Origin: Desulfonauticus sp.
GTDB taxonomy: Bacteria; Desulfobacterota; Desulfovibrionia; Desulfovibrionales; Desulfonatronovibrionaceae
Direction of reading: 5' to 3'
Length of the DNA: 55,201 bases
Assembly: GCA_030950395.1 (NCBI GenBank)
Contig: JAUZRP010000066.1
Location: 1-55,201 of the forward strand
The notes under the pieces are model-generated. The model was given only the letters and a program-made list of their open reading frames with translations, had not been told where the DNA came from and ran no database searches. Position numbers and translations under genes: made by a program. This document shows positions 1 through 8,533 of this stretch, piece by piece. Within the stretch, counting starts at the first letter, position 1, and every line of letters begins with the position of its first letter.

Positions 1-1
1 T

Positions 2-121
2 AAGCACAAGGAGATACCGTCGTGTAGGCGTTGTCATCCGAATAGTCATAAGCGAGGCAGGAAGGCAGACGTGTCCAAATGTTCATCCTGTCATGGCAAG
101 GCTCACAACGTGATCCCCTAG
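2..121 (+). CDS. C-terminal end of a multiheme c-type cytochrome (partial)
   Basis: Frame 2 is open from the window edge to a TAG at 119-121 and encodes the last 39 residues of a protein whose start is outside. It contains two heme-binding motifs, CRRCH and CSSCH, and ends in a short basic tail (GKAHNVIP). Each CxxCH motif covalently binds one heme c, so the full protein is an exported multiheme cytochrome. It sits just upstream of a large cytochrome cluster on the same strand and is probably part of it. The family cannot be named from this fragment. Confidence 0.8.
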   Translation, partial: KHKEIPSCRRCHPNSHKRGRKADVSKCSSCHGKAHNVIP

Positions 122-173
122 CCAAAAAACATAATAAAAAAATGGTTAGAAAAATAAAGTAGTATTAGAGGAT

Positions 174-355: not shown

Positions 356-1813
356 GTGGTGGCGGTAAAAGTGAGGAGAAATAAACGGTGGTTGAAGGTT
401 GCCAATTTGATGTTCGGGTTAATAGGGTTGTCCATTGTCTTGGGTGGGGAATTTGCTGTTGCGTCGAGGTTTGGTCTTATTTTAGCCAAAGTAAATGGTT
501 ATGTTATTGATGAACGTATTTTTGAAAATGAGTTGAAAAAGGAACATAAAGAATTATTATGGACATCATTGTCGCCTAACGTATTGCATAGAGTGAATTT
601 GTTAGATGTGCTCAATAAATTGATAGATAAACGTTTGATCATCGAAGAGGCTATTAACCTTGGATTGGATAAGGATCCTGTTTTTTTGCGCAATTTTAGA
701 CTGTTTGAGATCAATCAACTAATTCTTAGATTAAGAAAAGAAGTAGTTTTGGACAAAATTTCAGTTTCTGACGCAGAAATACGGGCTTATTTTAAGAAGT
801 TTTATTGTAAGGACGGTAAATTTGATGAAAAAAAATTTAAACACGTAAAGAGGTGGATAAAGAGAAAGTTAGAAAAATTAAAAGAAAAAGATCTGTCTGA
901 TAAATTTTTCGCTTTTTTAAGAAAAAGAGCACGTATTTGGATAGATAAGAAATTAGTGGATGAGTGCGGTGTAGAGAGTTCATTTAGTGTTTTAAAAGAC
1001 AAGATAATTGCTAGGGCTAATGGTAAGCCTATTTTGGCCCAAGATTTTATTGAGGACTTGAAAATAGTTTTAAATAATAGAAAGTTACAGAAAATAAAAG
1101 ACAAAGAAAAGAAACGAGAATACGTGAAAAAGATTAAAAAAATGGTTTTAACTCGCTTAATTACTCATGAATTAATTGTTCAAGAGGCTTTGAAAAGGAA
1201 GTCTCGCTACCTGGAGGATAGTAATTTGCTCGATATTCTTACGCAGCGTAAAGAACAGTTACTTATTAATTTGTTTAAAATAAGATATATTTATCCTTTG
1301 GCTAGACCTTCTAAAAAGGAGTTACGGGAGTATTATAGGACTCATAAAGATAAATTTAGAACTCCATCGAAAGTATGTTTTTCGGAAGTATACTTTGCCA
1401 AACGTAAGGAAGCAGAAAATTTTTTAAATAAGTTAAAACAAGGTGCTAGTTTTGAGTTTTTAGCTAAGCGGGTGGCTCAGGGATCAGCTGTGGAAAGGGA
1501 TTATATTTGGGTCTATACCAGTAAATTTTCTGAAAGGTTAAAAAAAGTTTTAGAGAGTTTAGCCGTTGGTAGCGTGAGCGGAGTTATAGCTGATGATGTT
1601 GGATATAAAGTTATCAAATTAAAAGCCAGAAAAAAAGGAAAAGTAGTAGAATTTTCAGAAGTGGAAAATATGTTAAAAAAGATAGTAGGTAAGCAAAAAT
1701 TTAAGAAAATATTGTCTGAATATATAAAGAGGTTGAGGAAACATGCTGATATTAAGATTTATAAAAAAAATTTAGAAAAATTAAAACAAAAATATTGGTC
1801 CAAAGCTGCGTAA
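356..1813 (+). CDS. SurA/PpiC-type periplasmic peptidyl-prolyl isomerase
   Basis: A 485-residue protein with an N-terminal hydrophobic segment (about residues 15-37) that acts as signal or anchor. A SurA N-like chaperone region (about 42-150, 'AKVNGYVIDERIFENEL') is followed by a second similar segment near 220-300 ('ARANGKPILAQDFIEDL'), and a parvulin-like region near 310-435. It is very rich in Lys. Such proteins help fold exported proteins. The start is GTG at 356, preceded by AAAGG; GTG at 359 is an alternative. It lies directly upstream of two giant cytochromes. Prolyl isomerases of this kind are often found in extracellular cytochrome loci, so a dedicated folding role for the Pro-rich HxP heme repeats is a reasonable inference. 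Substrate specificity is unknown. Confidence 0.75.
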   Translation: MVAVKVRRNKRWLKVANLMFGLIGLSIVLGGEFAVASRFGLILAKVNGYVIDERIFENELKKEHKELLWTSLSPNVLHRVNLLDVLNKLIDKRLIIEEAINLGLDKDPVFLRNFRLFEINQLILRLRKEVVLDKISVSDAEIRAYFKKFYCKDGKFDEKKFKHVKRWIKRKLEKLKEKDLSDKFFAFLRKRARIWIDKKLVDECGVESSFSVLKDKIIARANGKPILAQDFIEDLKIVLNNRKLQKIKDKEKKREYVKKIKKMVLTRLITHELIVQEALKRKSRYLEDSNLLDILTQRKEQLLINLFKIRYIYPLARPSKKELREYYRTHKDKFRTPSKVCFSEVYFAKRKEAENFLNKLKQGASFEFLAKRVAQGSAVERDYIWVYTSKFSERLKKVLESLAVGSVSGVIADDVGYKVIKLKARKKGKVVEFSEVENMLKKIVGKQKFKKILSEYIKRLRKHADIKIYKKNLEKLKQKYWSKAA

Positions 1814-1846: not shown

Positions 1847-3802
1847 GTGAACAGATTTAAATTTTCTTTAATATTTTTGCTAGTCATAATTTGTCTGGGC
1901 CTTGGTTTTGGGTGTAAGAGGAATATTTCTTCGCACAAGGCAAGGAAAAAATGTATTGATTGTCATCAAAAGGACTTTAGTAAATTTAAACAAGAACGAT
2001 TTGTCCATGCCCCTGTAGCTAAAGGGGAATGTAAAACCTGCCATCGTACTCATGGCGTATTGGGGGGGATCTATCTTAAGGCGGATAAAGATAAATTATG
2101 TCTTCGTTGTCATAAGGAGGCAAGAAATTTTCTTAAAAGTAAATATCCTCATCCTCCAGTAAAAAATGGAAAATGTACAAGTTGTCATGACCCTCATGCT
2201 TCTAACTATAAAAATTTATTAAAGAAAAACGGAAATAGCCTTTGTTTTTCTTGCCATTCGAAGACTCCCTATACAAAAAAATATGTTCATCCTCCTCTTA
2301 AGAGCAACAAAGGATGTTTAACTTGTCATAATGTACATGGGTCTAATTATAAAAAGCTTTTGCAGGCGTCTTTTGCGGATAGTTGTCAACGTTGTCATAA
2401 TATTAACGATGCAAAATTTATTAAGGTCCATTTTGGCTATAAACCTGGACCCAACTCTTGTTTAGATTGTCATACTCCTCATTCAGCGTCCAATAAAGAA
2501 TTGCTTCACGAATCTGTTCATCCACCTCTTGTCCGGGGAGAGTGTAAAAATTGTCATAATTCACCCGATAGTTCAAATCCTTTGGGAGTATCCCAGAAGG
2601 GGGCAGAATTGTGTTATCAATGTCATCAAAAAGATAAAAAAGCTTTTAGTAACAAGAGTTACGAACATGAGCCTATTAAAAGAGGGAATTGTCTTGCCTG
2701 TCATAGCCCGCATACTACTGATTATAAAGCTCAAACTATTTTGCCCAAAGGAAAGTTGTGTTATTCCTGTCATAAAGAAAAGCACGCTAGTTTTAATAAG
2801 AAATTTCAACATAAACCTATAAAAGAAGGGGATTGTACAAGTTGTCATGATCCGCATGCCTCCAATTATAAATTTGGCTTAAAGGCTGAAGGCGCATTGT
2901 TATGTTTTGATTGTCATAAAAAAGATAATTTTACAAAGAGGCTAGTGCATGTCCCAGTGAAACAAGGCAAATGCCTTACGTGTCATAATCCTCATGCTTC
3001 TAACCAGAAGTTTGAGTTAAAATCGAAAGAAACTCAGCTGTGTTATGGTTGCCATAAAAAGGAAAAAATTATGTTTGATAAGGTCAATGTCCATACTCCA
3101 ATTCGGCTTGGAAAGTGTGTAGTTTGTCATAACCCGCATTCAGCGAATAACAATGATTTGTTGGTGTTAAAAAAAGATAAACTCTGCTTTAAATGTCATC
3201 AAGCGATGTTAGATGAAGTTACTGGTGGTGTTGTACACGTTCCCTTTAGAGATGGTAGGTGTCTTGTTTGTCATGATGCTCATGCCAGTGATGAGGATTT
3301 TCATTTGTTAGAGAAAAGTCCTGATTTATGTTACTTTTGTCATAAAAACGTAGCCAAAGCAGCTATGGATCCTACGAAATATAAGCATAAGCCCCTAGAA
3401 AAGGGAGAGTGTACAAGTTGCCATAATCCTCACGGAAGTAAGGTTAAAGGGCTATTAAATTTACCTGTAAGAGATCTATGTTTATCATGTCACAAGAATT
3501 TGGCTGAGAATTTAATAAAAGAACCTTTTAAACATAAGCCAGCCCAACAAGGGGAATGTTTAAAGTGTCATGAGCCACATGATGCGAATAATCAAGATCT
3601 TCTGATTTTTTGTGGAGCAAATTTATGTGTTAGATGTCATGATATCAATAATGTAGCTTTGCGGAAAGCTCATCATAATATTGATATATCCCAGGCTAAT
3701 TGTGTGGCTTGTCATGAACCTCATAGTGCCAAAAATAAGGCATTGCTGCATGCTGTGATGCATGTTCCATTTAGAAATGGAAATTGCGGGGCCTGTCATT
3801 AA
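1847..3802 (+). CDS. 26-heme c-type cytochrome, doubled-CXXCH repeats, putative lipoprotein
   Basis: A 651-residue protein with 26 CxxCH motifs by direct count, one per 25 residues. Two alternating motif types, 'GxCxxCHxPHxS' and 'LCxxCH', form about 12 two-heme units, the pattern of the doubled-CXXCH (cytochrome c3-like) families. HxP residues ahead of the first motif of each unit are likely distal heme ligands. The N-terminus is a signal peptide ending LGFGC, a weak lipobox (Gly at -3), so it may be a lipid-anchored periplasmic or outer-membrane protein. The last codon before the stop is the His of the final motif (CGACH), so there is no C-terminal tail. It follows the prolyl isomerase by 33 bp. 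Inferred role: long-range electron wire between periplasm and outer membrane. Partner and direction of electron flow are not shown by sequence. Confidence 0.9.
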   Translation: MNRFKFSLIFLLVIICLGLGFGCKRNISSHKARKKCIDCHQKDFSKFKQERFVHAPVAKGECKTCHRTHGVLGGIYLKADKDKLCLRCHKEARNFLKSKYPHPPVKNGKCTSCHDPHASNYKNLLKKNGNSLCFSCHSKTPYTKKYVHPPLKSNKGCLTCHNVHGSNYKKLLQASFADSCQRCHNINDAKFIKVHFGYKPGPNSCLDCHTPHSASNKELLHESVHPPLVRGECKNCHNSPDSSNPLGVSQKGAELCYQCHQKDKKAFSNKSYEHEPIKRGNCLACHSPHTTDYKAQTILPKGKLCYSCHKEKHASFNKKFQHKPIKEGDCTSCHDPHASNYKFGLKAEGALLCFDCHKKDNFTKRLVHVPVKQGKCLTCHNPHASNQKFELKSKETQLCYGCHKKEKIMFDKVNVHTPIRLGKCVVCHNPHSANNNDLLVLKKDKLCFKCHQAMLDEVTGGVVHVPFRDGRCLVCHDAHASDEDFHLLEKSPDLCYFCHKNVAKAAMDPTKYKHKPLEKGECTSCHNPHGSKVKGLLNLPVRDLCLSCHKNLAENLIKEPFKHKPAQQGECLKCHEPHDANNQDLLIFCGANLCVRCHDINNVALRKAHHNIDISQANCVACHEPHSAKNKALLHAVMHVPFRNGNCGACH

Positions 3803-3955: not shown

Positions 3956-5209
3956 ATGAGGGTCCGAAGTTGTTTTAAGTTATTTTTAATTTTGGCCATG
4001 TTAATATGGATTAATGCGATGATGAGTGTTTGGGGCTGGGCTCAAAATTTTAACCCTGTGGGTAATGTGAAAAAATGTCTTACGTGTCATTCTGAGTTAA
4101 AAAAAGAATTTTCTAAAAAAATTATCCATAAACCGTTTAAAGATTTAAAATGTACTTACTGTCATAATCCTCATGCTGCAAAACATGGACATTTATTGAA
4201 GGAAGACGTTGGTATATTGTGTACACGTTGTCATAAAAATGAACGACAAACAATAAAAATGCGTGGTTATTTTCATCCGCCTTTTAAAGAAGGCCAATGT
4301 CTTAAGTGTCATAATCCTCATGCATCTTCATCATCTCATTTGTTAAAGGCTCAGGGAGAACGATTGTGTTTTGCGTGCCATGTTAAAAAGCAGTTTACTA
4401 AAAAATATCAACATATCCCTGTGAAAAATGGCCGTTGTTTAAGCTGTCATGATGTGCATAGGTCAGAGCATGAAAGCTTATTAAAAAGAGAACCTAAAAT
4501 TTTGTGTATGTCTTGTCATTCTTATAGCTATGCTAGATTGCAAAAAATCCATTTTGGATACCCTGTTCAAAATAAAGATTGTACGTCTTGTCATAATCCT
4601 CATAGTACAAAACGAAGGCACTTAATAAGGCCAATCTTACATAAACCTTTTGAAAAGAGACAGTGTACAACTTGTCATAAGAGACCTCAATTTAAGACCG
4701 TGGCTTTGAAGAAAAATAGTGCTTCTATTTGTTTCCAATGTCATCCGGATAAAAGAAAGGATTTTTACAAAATAAATAGTCATATAGGAAGTGGAGTATT
4801 TTGTTTAAATTGTCATGACCCCCATGCATCAAATGCAAAAAAACTGGAAAAACAAAATGAGGCAAAAAACTGTTTTCACTGTCATGAAGATAGTGAAAGG
4901 GATTTTTTTAATAAAACTAATAAATATAAACATCCTCTAGTAAAAGAAGGCAAGTGTAGTGTTTGTCACTCTCCTCATGGTTCAAACTATAGGTTGTTTT
5001 TTGAAGGAGGGGATATAAAGATGTGTACAAGATGTCACAAAAGACAGGCCAGATTTACTCACCCTATAGGAAAAGATGCTATTGATCCTCGATCTAAGAG
5101 GGCAATTAGTTGCATTACCTGTCATGAATTAATGGGAACGCCATATCAGTTTTCGTTAAGGTTTGATAGAAAAAAAGACCTTTGTATTCAATGTCATAAA
5201 GGCTATTAA
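3956..5209 (+). CDS. 16-heme c-type cytochrome, doubled-CXXCH repeats
   Basis: A 417-residue exported cytochrome with 16 CxxCH motifs by direct count. It has the same alternating units as the upstream 26-heme protein, so the two are probably paralogues. The N-terminal signal peptide (residues 1-29) ends near WAQN and has no lipobox, so this one is probably soluble in the periplasm or secreted. A SD-like AAGGA lies 10 bases before the ATG. It is 153 bp from the upstream gene and on the same strand; the gap has no clear terminator. Likely job: electron carrier working with the 26-heme protein. Confidence 0.9.
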   Translation: MRVRSCFKLFLILAMLIWINAMMSVWGWAQNFNPVGNVKKCLTCHSELKKEFSKKIIHKPFKDLKCTYCHNPHAAKHGHLLKEDVGILCTRCHKNERQTIKMRGYFHPPFKEGQCLKCHNPHASSSSHLLKAQGERLCFACHVKKQFTKKYQHIPVKNGRCLSCHDVHRSEHESLLKREPKILCMSCHSYSYARLQKIHFGYPVQNKDCTSCHNPHSTKRRHLIRPILHKPFEKRQCTTCHKRPQFKTVALKKNSASICFQCHPDKRKDFYKINSHIGSGVFCLNCHDPHASNAKKLEKQNEAKNCFHCHEDSERDFFNKTNKYKHPLVKEGKCSVCHSPHGSNYRLFFEGGDIKMCTRCHKRQARFTHPIGKDAIDPRSKRAISCITCHELMGTPYQFSLRFDRKKDLCIQCHKGY

Positions 5210-5308
5210 TAACGCAAGGCGTATCCACAAAAAGTTAATAATTTTTTAGTAAACTCTGTTTAGTAATGGATGTTAATTTTGGTAAGATTTAGCGATGGAT
5301 GGAGAGGC

Positions 5309-6235
5309 ATGGTGAAAAAACAAATGGTTAGAAAGCAAATTTATGTAGCGATGTTTGTCTTGATGGCTTTGTTGGTGCTACCTAAGTATAGTTTAGGTTG
5401 GCAAAAGAAAGAACGGATAAAATATGTTTTTTCTATCACAAGAGGGAAAGATTTTGGTTCATTTGGTTTGTTAGGCTCTGTTTTTTTTTCTGAACAAAAG
5501 CAGCGTTTATATGTGGCAGATGCGACCAATAATAGGATTCTTTCTTTTGGTGCCGATTTTAATTTTCTTGCTGAGTTTAATGCTGACGGAGCATTGTCTT
5601 ATCCTGTGAGTATTGTAAGAGATAAGAGGGGTAGATTATTTCTTTCAGAACCCTCTCGAGGACAAGTGCTTGTAGTTAGCTTGGTAAAACATGCCATTTC
5701 CCCTCTAGATTTTAGTGGAATTCCAAGCGAGAACAATATTTATCCTGGTAACTTGGCCATTGATGTTTCAGGAAAATTATACGTGGTGGATAAGGCAAAT
5801 CAAAGAATTTTGATTTTTGATGCAGATTTAAAGTTCAAAAAACAGATTTTGGTTAAATATGGACGTGGGTTAGAAGATGTTAAGGTCGACGATAACGGCT
5901 TTGTTTATACCTTAAGCACTGTGGATGGGAAAATTTGTATCTTTGATAAAGAAGGTAAGTTGGTTTTTAGTTTTGGTAAACGGGGGAATGGACATGGAGA
6001 ATTTCTTTTTCCTGTTAGTTTAGCTATAGGGCCAGATGGTTTAATTTATGTGCTTGATCGACATAAAAGTAAAGTGATGGTTTTTAATAAAAAAGGACAA
6101 TTTATGTTTGAATTTTCGGAATTTGGTTGGAGAGAGGGGCGTTTATATTTACCTTCCTACTTATATATTAATCGAGCGGGCCAAATTTTTATAGTTGATC
6201 AAGGTAATAATAGAATTAGTATTTTTCAGGAGTAA
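5309..6235 (+). CDS. NHL-repeat six-bladed beta-propeller, exported
   Basis: About 308 residues with six repeats of the NHL pattern, for example 'RLYVADATNNRILSF', 'GKLYVVDKANQRILIFD', 'GLIYVLDRHKSKVMVFN' and 'GQIFIVDQGNNRISIFQ'. Six blades close one propeller. An N-terminal hydrophobic segment (MFVLMALLVLPKYSLG) gives Sec export. The frame is open from ATG 5270, but ATG 5309 is preferred because GGAGAGG stands directly before it and the signal peptide then has normal length; ATG 5324 is also possible. NHL propellers bind other proteins and have no activity of their own. They are frequent neighbours of extracellular multiheme cytochromes, including the omcS region of Geobacter, which points to a scaffold or assembly role here. 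Confidence 0.85.
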   Translation: MVKKQMVRKQIYVAMFVLMALLVLPKYSLGWQKKERIKYVFSITRGKDFGSFGLLGSVFFSEQKQRLYVADATNNRILSFGADFNFLAEFNADGALSYPVSIVRDKRGRLFLSEPSRGQVLVVSLVKHAISPLDFSGIPSENNIYPGNLAIDVSGKLYVVDKANQRILIFDADLKFKKQILVKYGRGLEDVKVDDNGFVYTLSTVDGKICIFDKEGKLVFSFGKRGNGHGEFLFPVSLAIGPDGLIYVLDRHKSKVMVFNKKGQFMFEFSEFGWREGRLYLPSYLYINRAGQIFIVDQGNNRISIFQE

Positions 6236-6345
6236 GACAGAAAGATTGTCTTTAGTGATTTAAATATATTTGTTGAAGACATAAGGCAATTTATTGCATA
6301 GATCACTGTTTTAAGACCTTATTAGTAGGCCTTTTAAATTAAAAG

Positions 6346-7362
6346 GTGATGAGAGTGAGAAGATTAGTTTTTGGGAATATAGTGGTTGTATGTTTGTTGT
6401 GTGTTTGTATGCCCCTACACGCTGAAGTAACAGGTGAGTGTTCAAACTGTCATACTATGCATAATAGTCAGGGGGGGCAACCCATGGCTTATCATCTTGT
6501 TAATGGACAGCCTGTAGCGTCTAGTACCCCAAATCCTATGCTTTTAGTTTGTGATTGCATAGGTTGCCATACAAGTGATGGAACCAATACTATAGTTAAT
6601 GGAGTGCCTATTGTTTATAATATGGTGTCCCCCAATAAACCTTTGGCTGGGGGGAATTTTTATTATGTTATTAACAATGGAAATAATAGAGGCCATAATG
6701 TTTTTGGCATTAGTGGTCCTGATCCAAATTTGGGTAATACTCCTCCTGGCGGGACGTCTATGTCGTCACAACTACGATGTGCTGGGAAATATGGATGTCA
6801 TGGAGATAGAACTATTGTTAATCAATTTTTGGCTATGAAAGGGGCGCATCATACTCACGATGTTGTTCTTGATGGGAGCACAGTTGGGAAGAGTTATCGG
6901 TTTTTAAAGGGTGTGTTGGGCAAAGAAGAACCTCATTGGGAGCACGATGCAACAAGTTCGGTTCATAATGAATATCAAGGGGCTACAGATTTTTCTACAT
7001 CCACGAGCATTAGTTCTCTTTGTGCTCAATGTCATGGTAATTTTCACAGCTCCACAGGGGTAGGAGATAATTCTCCTTGGTTTAGACATCCTACTGATAT
7101 TATTCTACCTAATAAAGGGGAATATCAGCATTACAATGACGATACTTTGGACTATAGTTTAATTGCTCCTGTTGCCAGGCTTGATCCAAACAGTGTAGCA
7201 GATCCTAGTAAAGTAGTTCCGGGACAAGATGTAGTGATGTGTCTATCTTGTCACCGTGCTCATGGAAGTCCTTATTATAAAATGTTACGCTGGGATTACA
7301 CTAATTATGATTTGGATAAAGCTTTATCAGGATGTAGTGTATGTCATACCAATAAACAATAA
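6346..7362 (+). CDS. OmcS-like six-heme cytochrome (putative nanowire subunit)
   Basis: About 335 residues with a Sec signal peptide ending PLHA. Motifs in order: CSNCH, CIGCH, CAGKYGCH, CAQCH, CLSCH, CSVCH. From memory of G. sulfurreducens OmcS, the landmarks line up: 'ECxxCHTMHNS' at the start, 'GPMLL/NPMLL' before heme 2, 'GGxF', 'GHN', a 'PGG...QLxC' before heme 3, 'RHP' after heme 4, 'CLSCHRAH' at heme 5, and a CxxCH at the very end. OmcS forms stacked-heme extracellular filaments. The third motif here is CX5CH (Cys145, Cys151, His152) instead of CxxCH. The protein is shorter than OmcS (about 430 residues). Start: GTG 6346, ATG 6349 or GTG 6355 are all possible; AAAAGG at 6341-6346 best fits 6355. 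Filament formation is an inference. Confidence 0.75.
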   Translation: MMRVRRLVFGNIVVVCLLCVCMPLHAEVTGECSNCHTMHNSQGGQPMAYHLVNGQPVASSTPNPMLLVCDCIGCHTSDGTNTIVNGVPIVYNMVSPNKPLAGGNFYYVINNGNNRGHNVFGISGPDPNLGNTPPGGTSMSSQLRCAGKYGCHGDRTIVNQFLAMKGAHHTHDVVLDGSTVGKSYRFLKGVLGKEEPHWEHDATSSVHNEYQGATDFSTSTSISSLCAQCHGNFHSSTGVGDNSPWFRHPTDIILPNKGEYQHYNDDTLDYSLIAPVARLDPNSVADPSKVVPGQDVVMCLSCHRAHGSPYYKMLRWDYTNYDLDKALSGCSVCHTNKQ

Positions 7363-7375
7363 ATAATAGGTCACT

Positions 7376-8533
7376 ATGCATATTAGAGAGTTTTTTAAGT
7401 CTTATAGAGAAAGTGGGAAATTTATTTTTAAGATAATGTTATTAGTAAGTATTTTTGTTTGGGCAAGTGGTCCAATTTACGCGGGCAATTATTTGAATTC
7501 TGCTCATGGCAACTCTAATTATGGAGTAAAACGTACAGGTATCTCTCAATATCCTCGTGGTCATTGTGCCCATTGTCATGAACAACATGCAAGTATTAAT
7601 GGAGCAGAACCTGTCCCTATCAATGGAGCGGTTGGTTATTTGTTATTCTCTCCCAATTATACTAGTCAGACCGTTAATTTTTGTTTTGATTGTCATGTTC
7701 AAACAGGTGGCTATCAAGAGGGGGGCGGGATAATCAATAGAAGTTATAGTTATAATTTTGGGGGGAACACAGATAGTTATGATAATGATTTGAAACAGGC
7801 CTTTAGTCATACTGCTCCTGGTTCGTCACACAATTTAAATGACATTAAAAAAATTCTAGGAACTACTATGTACGATGCTAACGGTCACGAATGGTCTTTA
7901 CCCAAAACGCTAAATCCCTGTGATGCCTGTCATAATCCCCATATTGTCCAACGTAATTATCCTGTGAGCAATGCGGATGGGAAATTAAAAACAGCTGTGA
8001 CAAGACCCTCAAATCCTAATCAATTATGGGGTGATGATGAGGGTGAACGAATGAATAGGTATGGTGATTATCAAGCTCCTTATTGGTATGGCTCTGATAC
8101 AGATGATCCCAAATTTGAGCCAGCAGGTGATGAGGTACAAGATGGTTCAAATTTACCTGATTTTGTGAGGTTATGTACAGATTGCCATAATGGCTACAAT
8201 CAAATTTGGAGTTCTAGGTTAGGCAGATATCTTCTGCCAATAAAATGGTTTTCTAATAATGGAGATATTCATGGGGTAAAAAGAGGATTTATTAAACGCC
8301 CGCGACCGCCTTATAGCTACCAACAACACTATACCCTTAGTTGTACTGATTGTCATGAACCTCATGGTTCAAGTAATATTTTTTTGTTGCGAACATCTAT
8401 AAATGGCAAGAGTATATCTGTGTCAAACACCGATGATGAGTCTTGGCGGAATTTCTGTTATGGAGCGTGTCATAATTATAAACACAATAAACGTAATTGT
8501 TTTGAATGTCATCACCATAATAAAAAGTTTTAA
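7376..8533 (+). CDS. Seven-heme exported cytochrome with one CX3CH motif
   Basis: A 385-residue protein with a signal peptide cut near IYA/GN. Six normal motifs (CAHCH, CFDCH, CDACH, CTDCH, CTDCH, CFECH) and one CYGACH (Cys361-His366), a CX3CH spacing. It begins 'NYLNSAHG' and has 'HCAHCHEQHAS', typical of large low-heme-density extracellular cytochromes: one heme per 55 residues, against 25 in the 26-heme protein. It starts 13 bp after the OmcS-like gene, so the two are almost surely co-transcribed. It may be a filament cap, a partner, or a second extracellular cytochrome; sequence alone does not decide. Confidence 0.85.
   Translation: MHIREFFKSYRESGKFIFKIMLLVSIFVWASGPIYAGNYLNSAHGNSNYGVKRTGISQYPRGHCAHCHEQHASINGAEPVPINGAVGYLLFSPNYTSQTVNFCFDCHVQTGGYQEGGGIINRSYSYNFGGNTDSYDNDLKQAFSHTAPGSSHNLNDIKKILGTTMYDANGHEWSLPKTLNPCDACHNPHIVQRNYPVSNADGKLKTAVTRPSNPNQLWGDDEGERMNRYGDYQAPYWYGSDTDDPKFEPAGDEVQDGSNLPDFVRLCTDCHNGYNQIWSSRLGRYLLPIKWFSNNGDIHGVKRGFIKRPRPPYSYQQHYTLSCTDCHEPHGSSNIFLLRTSINGKSISVSNTDDESWRNFCYGACHNYKHNKRNCFECHHHNKKF

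Follow-up and report, generated by a model that had tools for sequence, protein, structure and literature searches.

An OmcS-like hexaheme cytochrome of the OmcS sister clade, encoded in an EET cassette of Desulfonauticus sp.

Proposed OmcS-like wires and the cassette of Desulfonauticus sp.

OmcS-like, OmcX and Apc2a wires have been proposed for ANME-partner sulfate reducers, in which OmcS-like genes are highly expressed (Murali et al., PMC10553843). A four-gene core with surrounding small cytochromes has been described in SEEP-SRB1 and D. alkaliphilus (Skennerton et al., PMC5539420). The OmcS-like proteins of Desulfurivibrio, in which CX2-5CH motifs are counted as heme sites, form a sister clade of OmcS; when sulfide oxidation is coupled to Fe(III) oxide respiration, DA_402 is induced >100-fold, and AF2 models an OmcS-like protein of this organism as a filamentous oligomer (Nature 2025, PMC12545173). 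Within OmcS itself, 11 of the 12 axial histidines come from the subunit's own chain and one, on heme 505, comes from the neighbouring subunit (Filman et al., PMC6584659). What OmcS filaments do physiologically is itself under dispute (PMC11077965).

Here, a stretch of 55,201 nucleotides from Desulfonauticus sp. (the window) was analyzed, in which an OmcS-like gene lies within a cassette of multiheme cytochromes (Table 1). A sequence-only reading had noted that such a protein would stand outside its best-studied host; for sulfate reducers, earlier papers have reported this (PMC10553843, PMC5539420, PMC12545173). Proposed OmcS-like wires and the cassette core are known from sulfate reducers and Desulfurivibrio, and the present gene adds a member; what is new is the CX5CH site of the clade, a subunit ancestry unlike that of the cassette, and an intact member on a tailed-phage contig. 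The host is likely a sulfate reducer, as that reading had supposed, because dsrA is detected in its genome above the curated cut-off. Compared by description, the locus resembles the ANME-partner cytochromes in combining a sulfate reducer, an OmcS homolog in an EET cassette and a proposed wire (PMC10553843).

The cassette genes follow one another as isomerase, 26-heme cytochrome, 16-heme cytochrome, NHL propeller, OmcS-like cytochrome and small cytochrome, with gaps of 33, 153, 60, 110 and 13 bp. The adjacent isomerase, 26-heme, 16-heme and six-bladed propeller genes agree with the definition of a SEEP-SRB-type EET operon (PMC5539420). Smaller cytochromes accompany this core in SEEP-SRB1 as well; no difference in the core was found, and the flanking small cytochromes vary. 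The full six-gene order recurs in L078, L082, L085 and L089. It is also kept in L006, L079, L086 and L088, but there a contig or stretch end truncates it or one part is missing, and in the Nitrospirota loci L001, L004, L005 and L012, as well as in L007 (Bacterium BMS3Abin06, which groups with Nitrospirota loci), it occurs without a propeller in between. Taken singly, the isomerase keeps the same cassette order in L078, L079, L082, L085 and L089, the propeller is found at the same place in L078, L079, L082, L085 and L086, and relatives of the 26-heme cytochrome with 26 motifs are present at 10 or more loci. GC3 of the cassette (0.27 vs 0.32, sd 0.05 per gene) gives no clear sign of foreign origin.

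In most cassettes, the OmcS-like gene is followed by a relative (37–55% identical) of the small cytochrome that begins 13 bp 3' of it in the window; this cytochrome is about as conserved in cassettes as the OmcS-like gene. It matches no solved structure (the best hit, a non-filament protein, has E 0.01) and is possibly a cap, an adaptor or a second wire. In Geobacter, the omcS-companion (osc) cluster places a prolyl-isomerase chaperone, channel-like proteins and a beta-propeller beside omcS. The prolyl isomerase and beta-propeller of the present cassette resemble parts of this cluster, a likeness that serves as a lead.

Variants of the OmcS-like gene were seen at other loci. In G343, an OmcS-like cytochrome is fused to a PD40 WD40-like propeller (L077:10235-13499, at least 1088 aa), placing two cassette functions in one chain. 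In the Nitrospirae MAG JACQZG010000009.1 (L002), a TAA at ~10700 lies inside the heme 4 motif of the OmcS-like gene (CA*CH), and the reading frame is open before and after it; this is a sequencing error or a pseudogene.

Table 1 Features of the cassette and of the OmcS-like gene, in window coordinates
Feature	Position	Strand	Basis or remark
SurA/PpiC-type peptidyl-prolyl isomerase, cassette core	356..1813	+	Pfam Rotamase_2 E 1e-17, SurA_N_3 E 1e-14
26-heme paired-CXXCH cytochrome, lipobox-like N-terminus, cassette core	1847..3802	+	Paired_CXXCH_1 E 8e-144
16-heme paired-CXXCH cytochrome, cassette core	3956..5209	+	Paired_CXXCH_1 E 1e-76
NHL six-bladed beta-propeller protein, cassette core	5270..6235	+	NHL E 7e-20
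OmcS-like hexaheme c-type cytochrome CDS, 338 aa	6346..7362	+	ORF, profile match to OmcS E 1.5e-22, tree
Putative signal peptide MMRVRRLVFGNIVVVCLLCVCMPLHA	6346..6423	+	by eye from sequence; mature from E27
Heme 1 motif CSNCH (C32-H36)	6439..6453	+	invariant across family alignments
His39, aligned with OmcS His16	6460..6462	+	expected ligand to heme 5 of next subunit
Heme 2 motif CIGCH (C71-H75)	6556..6570	+	family alignments
Heme 3 motif CAGKYGCH (C145-H152), CX5CH vs OmcS CXXCH	6778..6801	+	clade motif count
Heme 4 motif CAQCH (C226-H230)	7021..7035	+	family alignments
Heme 5 motif CLSCH (C299-H303), then RAH	7240..7254	+	family alignments
Heme 6 motif CSVCH (C330-H334)	7333..7347	+	family alignments
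Second small multiheme cytochrome, 385 aa, cassette partner	7376..8533	+	Paired_CXXCH_1 E 1.5e-6

Homology to OmcS and placement in the sister clade

When the single protein sequence was searched against all PDB chains, OmcS was the sole match (E 7e-7). A 14-sequence profile matched OmcS (PDB 6ef8) at E 1.5e-22, whereas the next multiheme filament cytochrome, OmcE, followed at E 0.69 and OmcZ and MtrC-type proteins were not matched. Because OmcS alone is matched and these other cytochromes are not, the match is not a product of composition (many CXXCH motifs) alone. Homology to OmcE or OmcZ was considered and rejected on the same search. The only OmcS-family structures returned by the PDB search were those of G. 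sulfurreducens OmcS.

The family alignment gives ~30% identity to OmcS across 271 aligned residues. The proximal histidines of hemes 1, 2, 4 and 5 align with H13, H51, H243 and H332 of OmcS; the OmcS sequence in this alignment ends ahead of its sixth heme motif, which both proteins possess and which, for OmcS, is visible in the PDB profile match. Distal-type histidines are also held in common (H39=H16, H117=H110, H234=H247, H248=H257 and H306=H335), and the proximal histidines of the six hemes align in order in 62/62 members of the sister clade. The OmcS-like assignment, with hemes 1–6 in order, therefore held on alignment with G. sulfurreducens OmcS. All of the landmarks that had been named in its favor are found in the ORF (ECSNCHTMHNS, PMLL, GGNF, GHN, PGG...QLRC, RHP, CLSCHRAH and a terminal CSVCH), and the CHTMHNS start, GHN, RHP and CLSCHRAH are shared with OmcS (PDB 6ef8, 6nef). 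The six heme motifs stand in the OmcS order as described, but they are not six CXXCH motifs: five are, and the third is C145-AGKYG-C151-H152 (CX5CH). Further differences from OmcS are an extra conserved HH and HNEY.

In a quick maximum-likelihood tree built from 85 sequences, the protein falls within a 62-member clade (SH-aLRT 95) of Desulfobacterota and Nitrospirota sequences; G. sulfurreducens OmcS is placed with L083 and L084 (support 100). OmcS homology, heme order, a CX5CH heme 3 and a short heme 5–6 spacer are all present in the protein, in agreement with membership of this sister clade. To the same clade belong most of the sampled OmcS-family genes from bacteria not of Geobacter type. 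Across the phylum, the profile finds matches (E<=0.001) in 74 of 395 sampled genomes, and many of these carry several copies. Matches are found in 11 of the 247 sampled genomes of the order and in none of 17 genomes of the same genus or family, and full-length sister-clade genes in the order (247 sampled) are limited to the host genome, G483 and G451. Genome G230, which on its gene positions is presumably D. alkaliphilus AHT2, carries loci of the same clade (quick tree) with the same cassette. DA_402, DA_756 and DA_765 of D. alkaliphilus share the sister-clade position and CX2-5CH motifs (PMC12545173); the differences are that this organism is a sulfide oxidizer, that DA_402 has seven motifs and that the cassette members are 41–42% identical to the protein described here.

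The same-order genome G614 (L084) carries a true OmcS relative, which shares 56% identity with the G. sulfurreducens protein and is adjoined by a partial second copy. Tetraheme Desulfovibrionales proteins with a weak N-terminal match (L058-L063) were considered as OmcE-like and set aside; L059, the one tested, has no significant PDB match.

The mature protein has ~312 residues vs 407 in OmcS, in line with the shortfall of about 100 residues read from the sequence. Successive proximal histidines are 39, 77, 78, 73 and 31 residues apart, vs 38, 93, 99, 89 and 72 in OmcS, and the largest single share of the difference (~40 residues) lies in the heme 5–6 spacer (31 vs 72). This spacing is 28–37 in 62/62 clade members and 69–73 in OmcS and two close OmcS relatives. 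Shortness is thus a trait of a large clade, and the term "compact" does not single out this gene; its heme 1-to-6 span of 298 is near the low end of the clade range (283–390). The start codon may be GTG 6355, since AAAAGG is present at ~6341-6346, 8 nt ahead of it.

Proposed filament role and the heme 3 site

The neighbor-donated axial ligand of OmcS is reportedly His16 (6ef8 structure). In the family alignment, the corresponding column (His39) contains histidine in 62/62 sister-clade rows and in every other row, so the histidine that bridges to the neighboring subunit in OmcS is conserved. The heme 5 region is invariant through the whole clade. His39 by itself does not prove bridging, because CxxCHxxH is common among multiheme cytochromes. 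With 12 relatives included, AlphaFold2 gave a monomer model of the mature chain (pLDDT 44, pTM 0.33) that was too poor for use.

A filament is nevertheless favored by the profile homology to OmcS only, the proximal and distal-type histidines aligned with those of OmcS, the sister-clade placement, the cassette, the published relatives and dsrA. The protein is probably a secreted hexaheme c-type cytochrome of the OmcS sister clade with a filament-subunit role, and it likely serves as the repeating subunit of an extracellular filament that would polymerize and conduct electrons. Judging from the signal peptide, recognized by eye, and from the heme motifs, the protein would be exported by Sec, loaded with heme and located at the surface. 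Conserved synteny and published operons suggest that the cassette prolyl isomerase would fold the subunit, which would pass to the surface with the 26-heme, 16-heme and beta-propeller proteins. Homology and the absolute conservation of His39 are consistent with end-to-end stacking in which this residue would ligate heme 5 of the next subunit as in OmcS, and the chain of six hemes might then carry electrons, by hopping, from or to the cell, with minerals, electrodes or partner cells at the other end.

Alternatively, the protein could be a monomeric or short-oligomer outer-surface cytochrome with the OmcS fold that acts as a terminal reductase or redox capacitor and forms no filament. The remodeled heme 3 region and heme 5–6 loop could alter the interface, a second small cytochrome is encoded directly 3' of the gene, and for most of the OmcS family filaments have never been observed. 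However, we consider this alternative unlikely, given the clade-wide invariance of His39 and of the heme 5 region and the filamentous AF2 oligomer published for a probable clade member (PMC12545173).

In the alignment register, OmcS C140-SS-C143-H144-DP-H147 corresponds to C145-AGKYG-C151-H152, with the proximal H152 in the OmcS H147 column and no histidine in the sister clade at the H144 column. In this register OmcS His147 is left without a separate counterpart. The clade has invariant H168 and H169 and, in 97%, H207, at columns where OmcS lacks histidine, and its conserved histidines exceed the need of six hemes by two, a surplus that counts against the filament reading. The role of the lost ligand would most likely be taken by His168, His169 or His207, and heme 3 would be held by the CX5CH motif. 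Three heme-3 designs occur in the clade: CX5CH alone, CX5CH with an extra CXXCH, and CX2-3CH with CXGCH. The consensus C-[AS]-[GT]-x-x-G-C-H-G is kept in 45/62 members, which argues that CX5CH is a working heme site. A protein with five hemes, in which CX5CH is a decayed heme 3, would accord with the non-canonical motif and with the absence of the OmcS CXXCH Cys-His pair from its own columns. Such a protein is quite improbable: both cysteines, the histidine and the flanking glycines are invariant in 45 diverged members, which decay would not produce, and CX2-5CH motifs are counted as heme sites in the OmcS-like protein of PMC12545173. That the gene is an ordinary strict OmcS ortholog from Geobacter-type bacteria is scarcely credible, for although the heme order is the same and one same-order genome has a true OmcS (56% identical), the protein lies in the sister clade, outside the OmcS clade, in the quick tree, has CX5CH and not CXXCH at heme 3, and has a 31-residue heme 5–6 spacer (OmcS type 69–73).

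We found no experimental study of the rebuilt heme 3 site of this branch in the literature. For a filament, the CX5CH site and the shorter loop should measurably alter the heme spacing or the helical rise, and one cryo-EM structure from the clade could show whether the wire chemistry of sulfate reducers and ANME partners equals that of Geobacter.

Ancestry of subunit and machinery, and further OmcS-like loci

The 26-heme, 16-heme and 8-heme proteins of the window are closest to the own-order cassettes L006, L078 and L079 (40–55% identity). The OmcS-like subunit is closest to the Nitrospirota MAG locus L001 (56–58%, vs 45–46% to its own order), a pairing with a support of only 0.79. Constraining the machinery to group with Nitrospirota-type loci was rejected (AU p 0.003), as was constraining the subunit to group with L006/L078/L079 (AU p 0.012). 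Both an exchange of the subunit and an old duplication with different copies kept fit this discord; the duplication is quite possible, because tandem copies of both types are present in several loci (e.g. L033, L043, L045). As a tentative possibility, the clade may represent a second, separately remodeled line of OmcS-fold nanowires (CX5CH heme 3, different distal ligation, short heme 5–6 loop), whose subunit could be exchanged between cassettes, and even be acquired by phages, independently of the assembly machinery.

A second EET locus was observed in the same genome on contig C86 (L068), where behind an OmcS-like paralog (301-1278, 325 aa, 39–41% identical) come genes for an NHL protein, a propeller of YVTN type, a barrel-like protein of 721 aa (F5/8C as sole domain match, no Pfam porin match), small lipoproteins (GNA1162/LpoB-like) and a five-CXXCH cytochrome. 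With regard to a porin-cytochrome conduit (OetABI), which pairs an outer-membrane barrel with cytochromes at one locus, this barrel-like protein near the paralog is what was observed. In L078 and L079, a block like this one stands ahead of the cassette. The first ~140 bp are identical in the window (1-140) and C86 (1-140) and correspond to the 3' end of a 12-heme-type cytochrome gene; a search of the genome for a 12-heme conduit pair found only these two identical partial ends. Both contigs begin with the same sequence, so a repeat probably interrupted the assembly here; the C86 block and the window cassette may be neighbors.

An intact OmcS-like gene was also observed on a tailed-phage contig (IMGVR_UViG_3300005099_000065, 79,661 bp), at 70105-71199 (L094:3004-4101). 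It had no match in 50,697 phage records, a search of plasmid records likewise gave none, and no precedent for a phage-borne OmcS-like cytochrome was found in the literature searched. The gene lies between those for an endolysin and a RuvC-like resolvase, and portal, major head protein, DNA polymerase and clamp loader genes are present on the contig. The encoded cytochrome (365 aa, with a signal peptide and six motifs) belongs to the CX5CH clade (profile E 2.9e-101) and is 59% identical to that of L033; if real, this single contig carries a phage-borne nanowire-type cytochrome.
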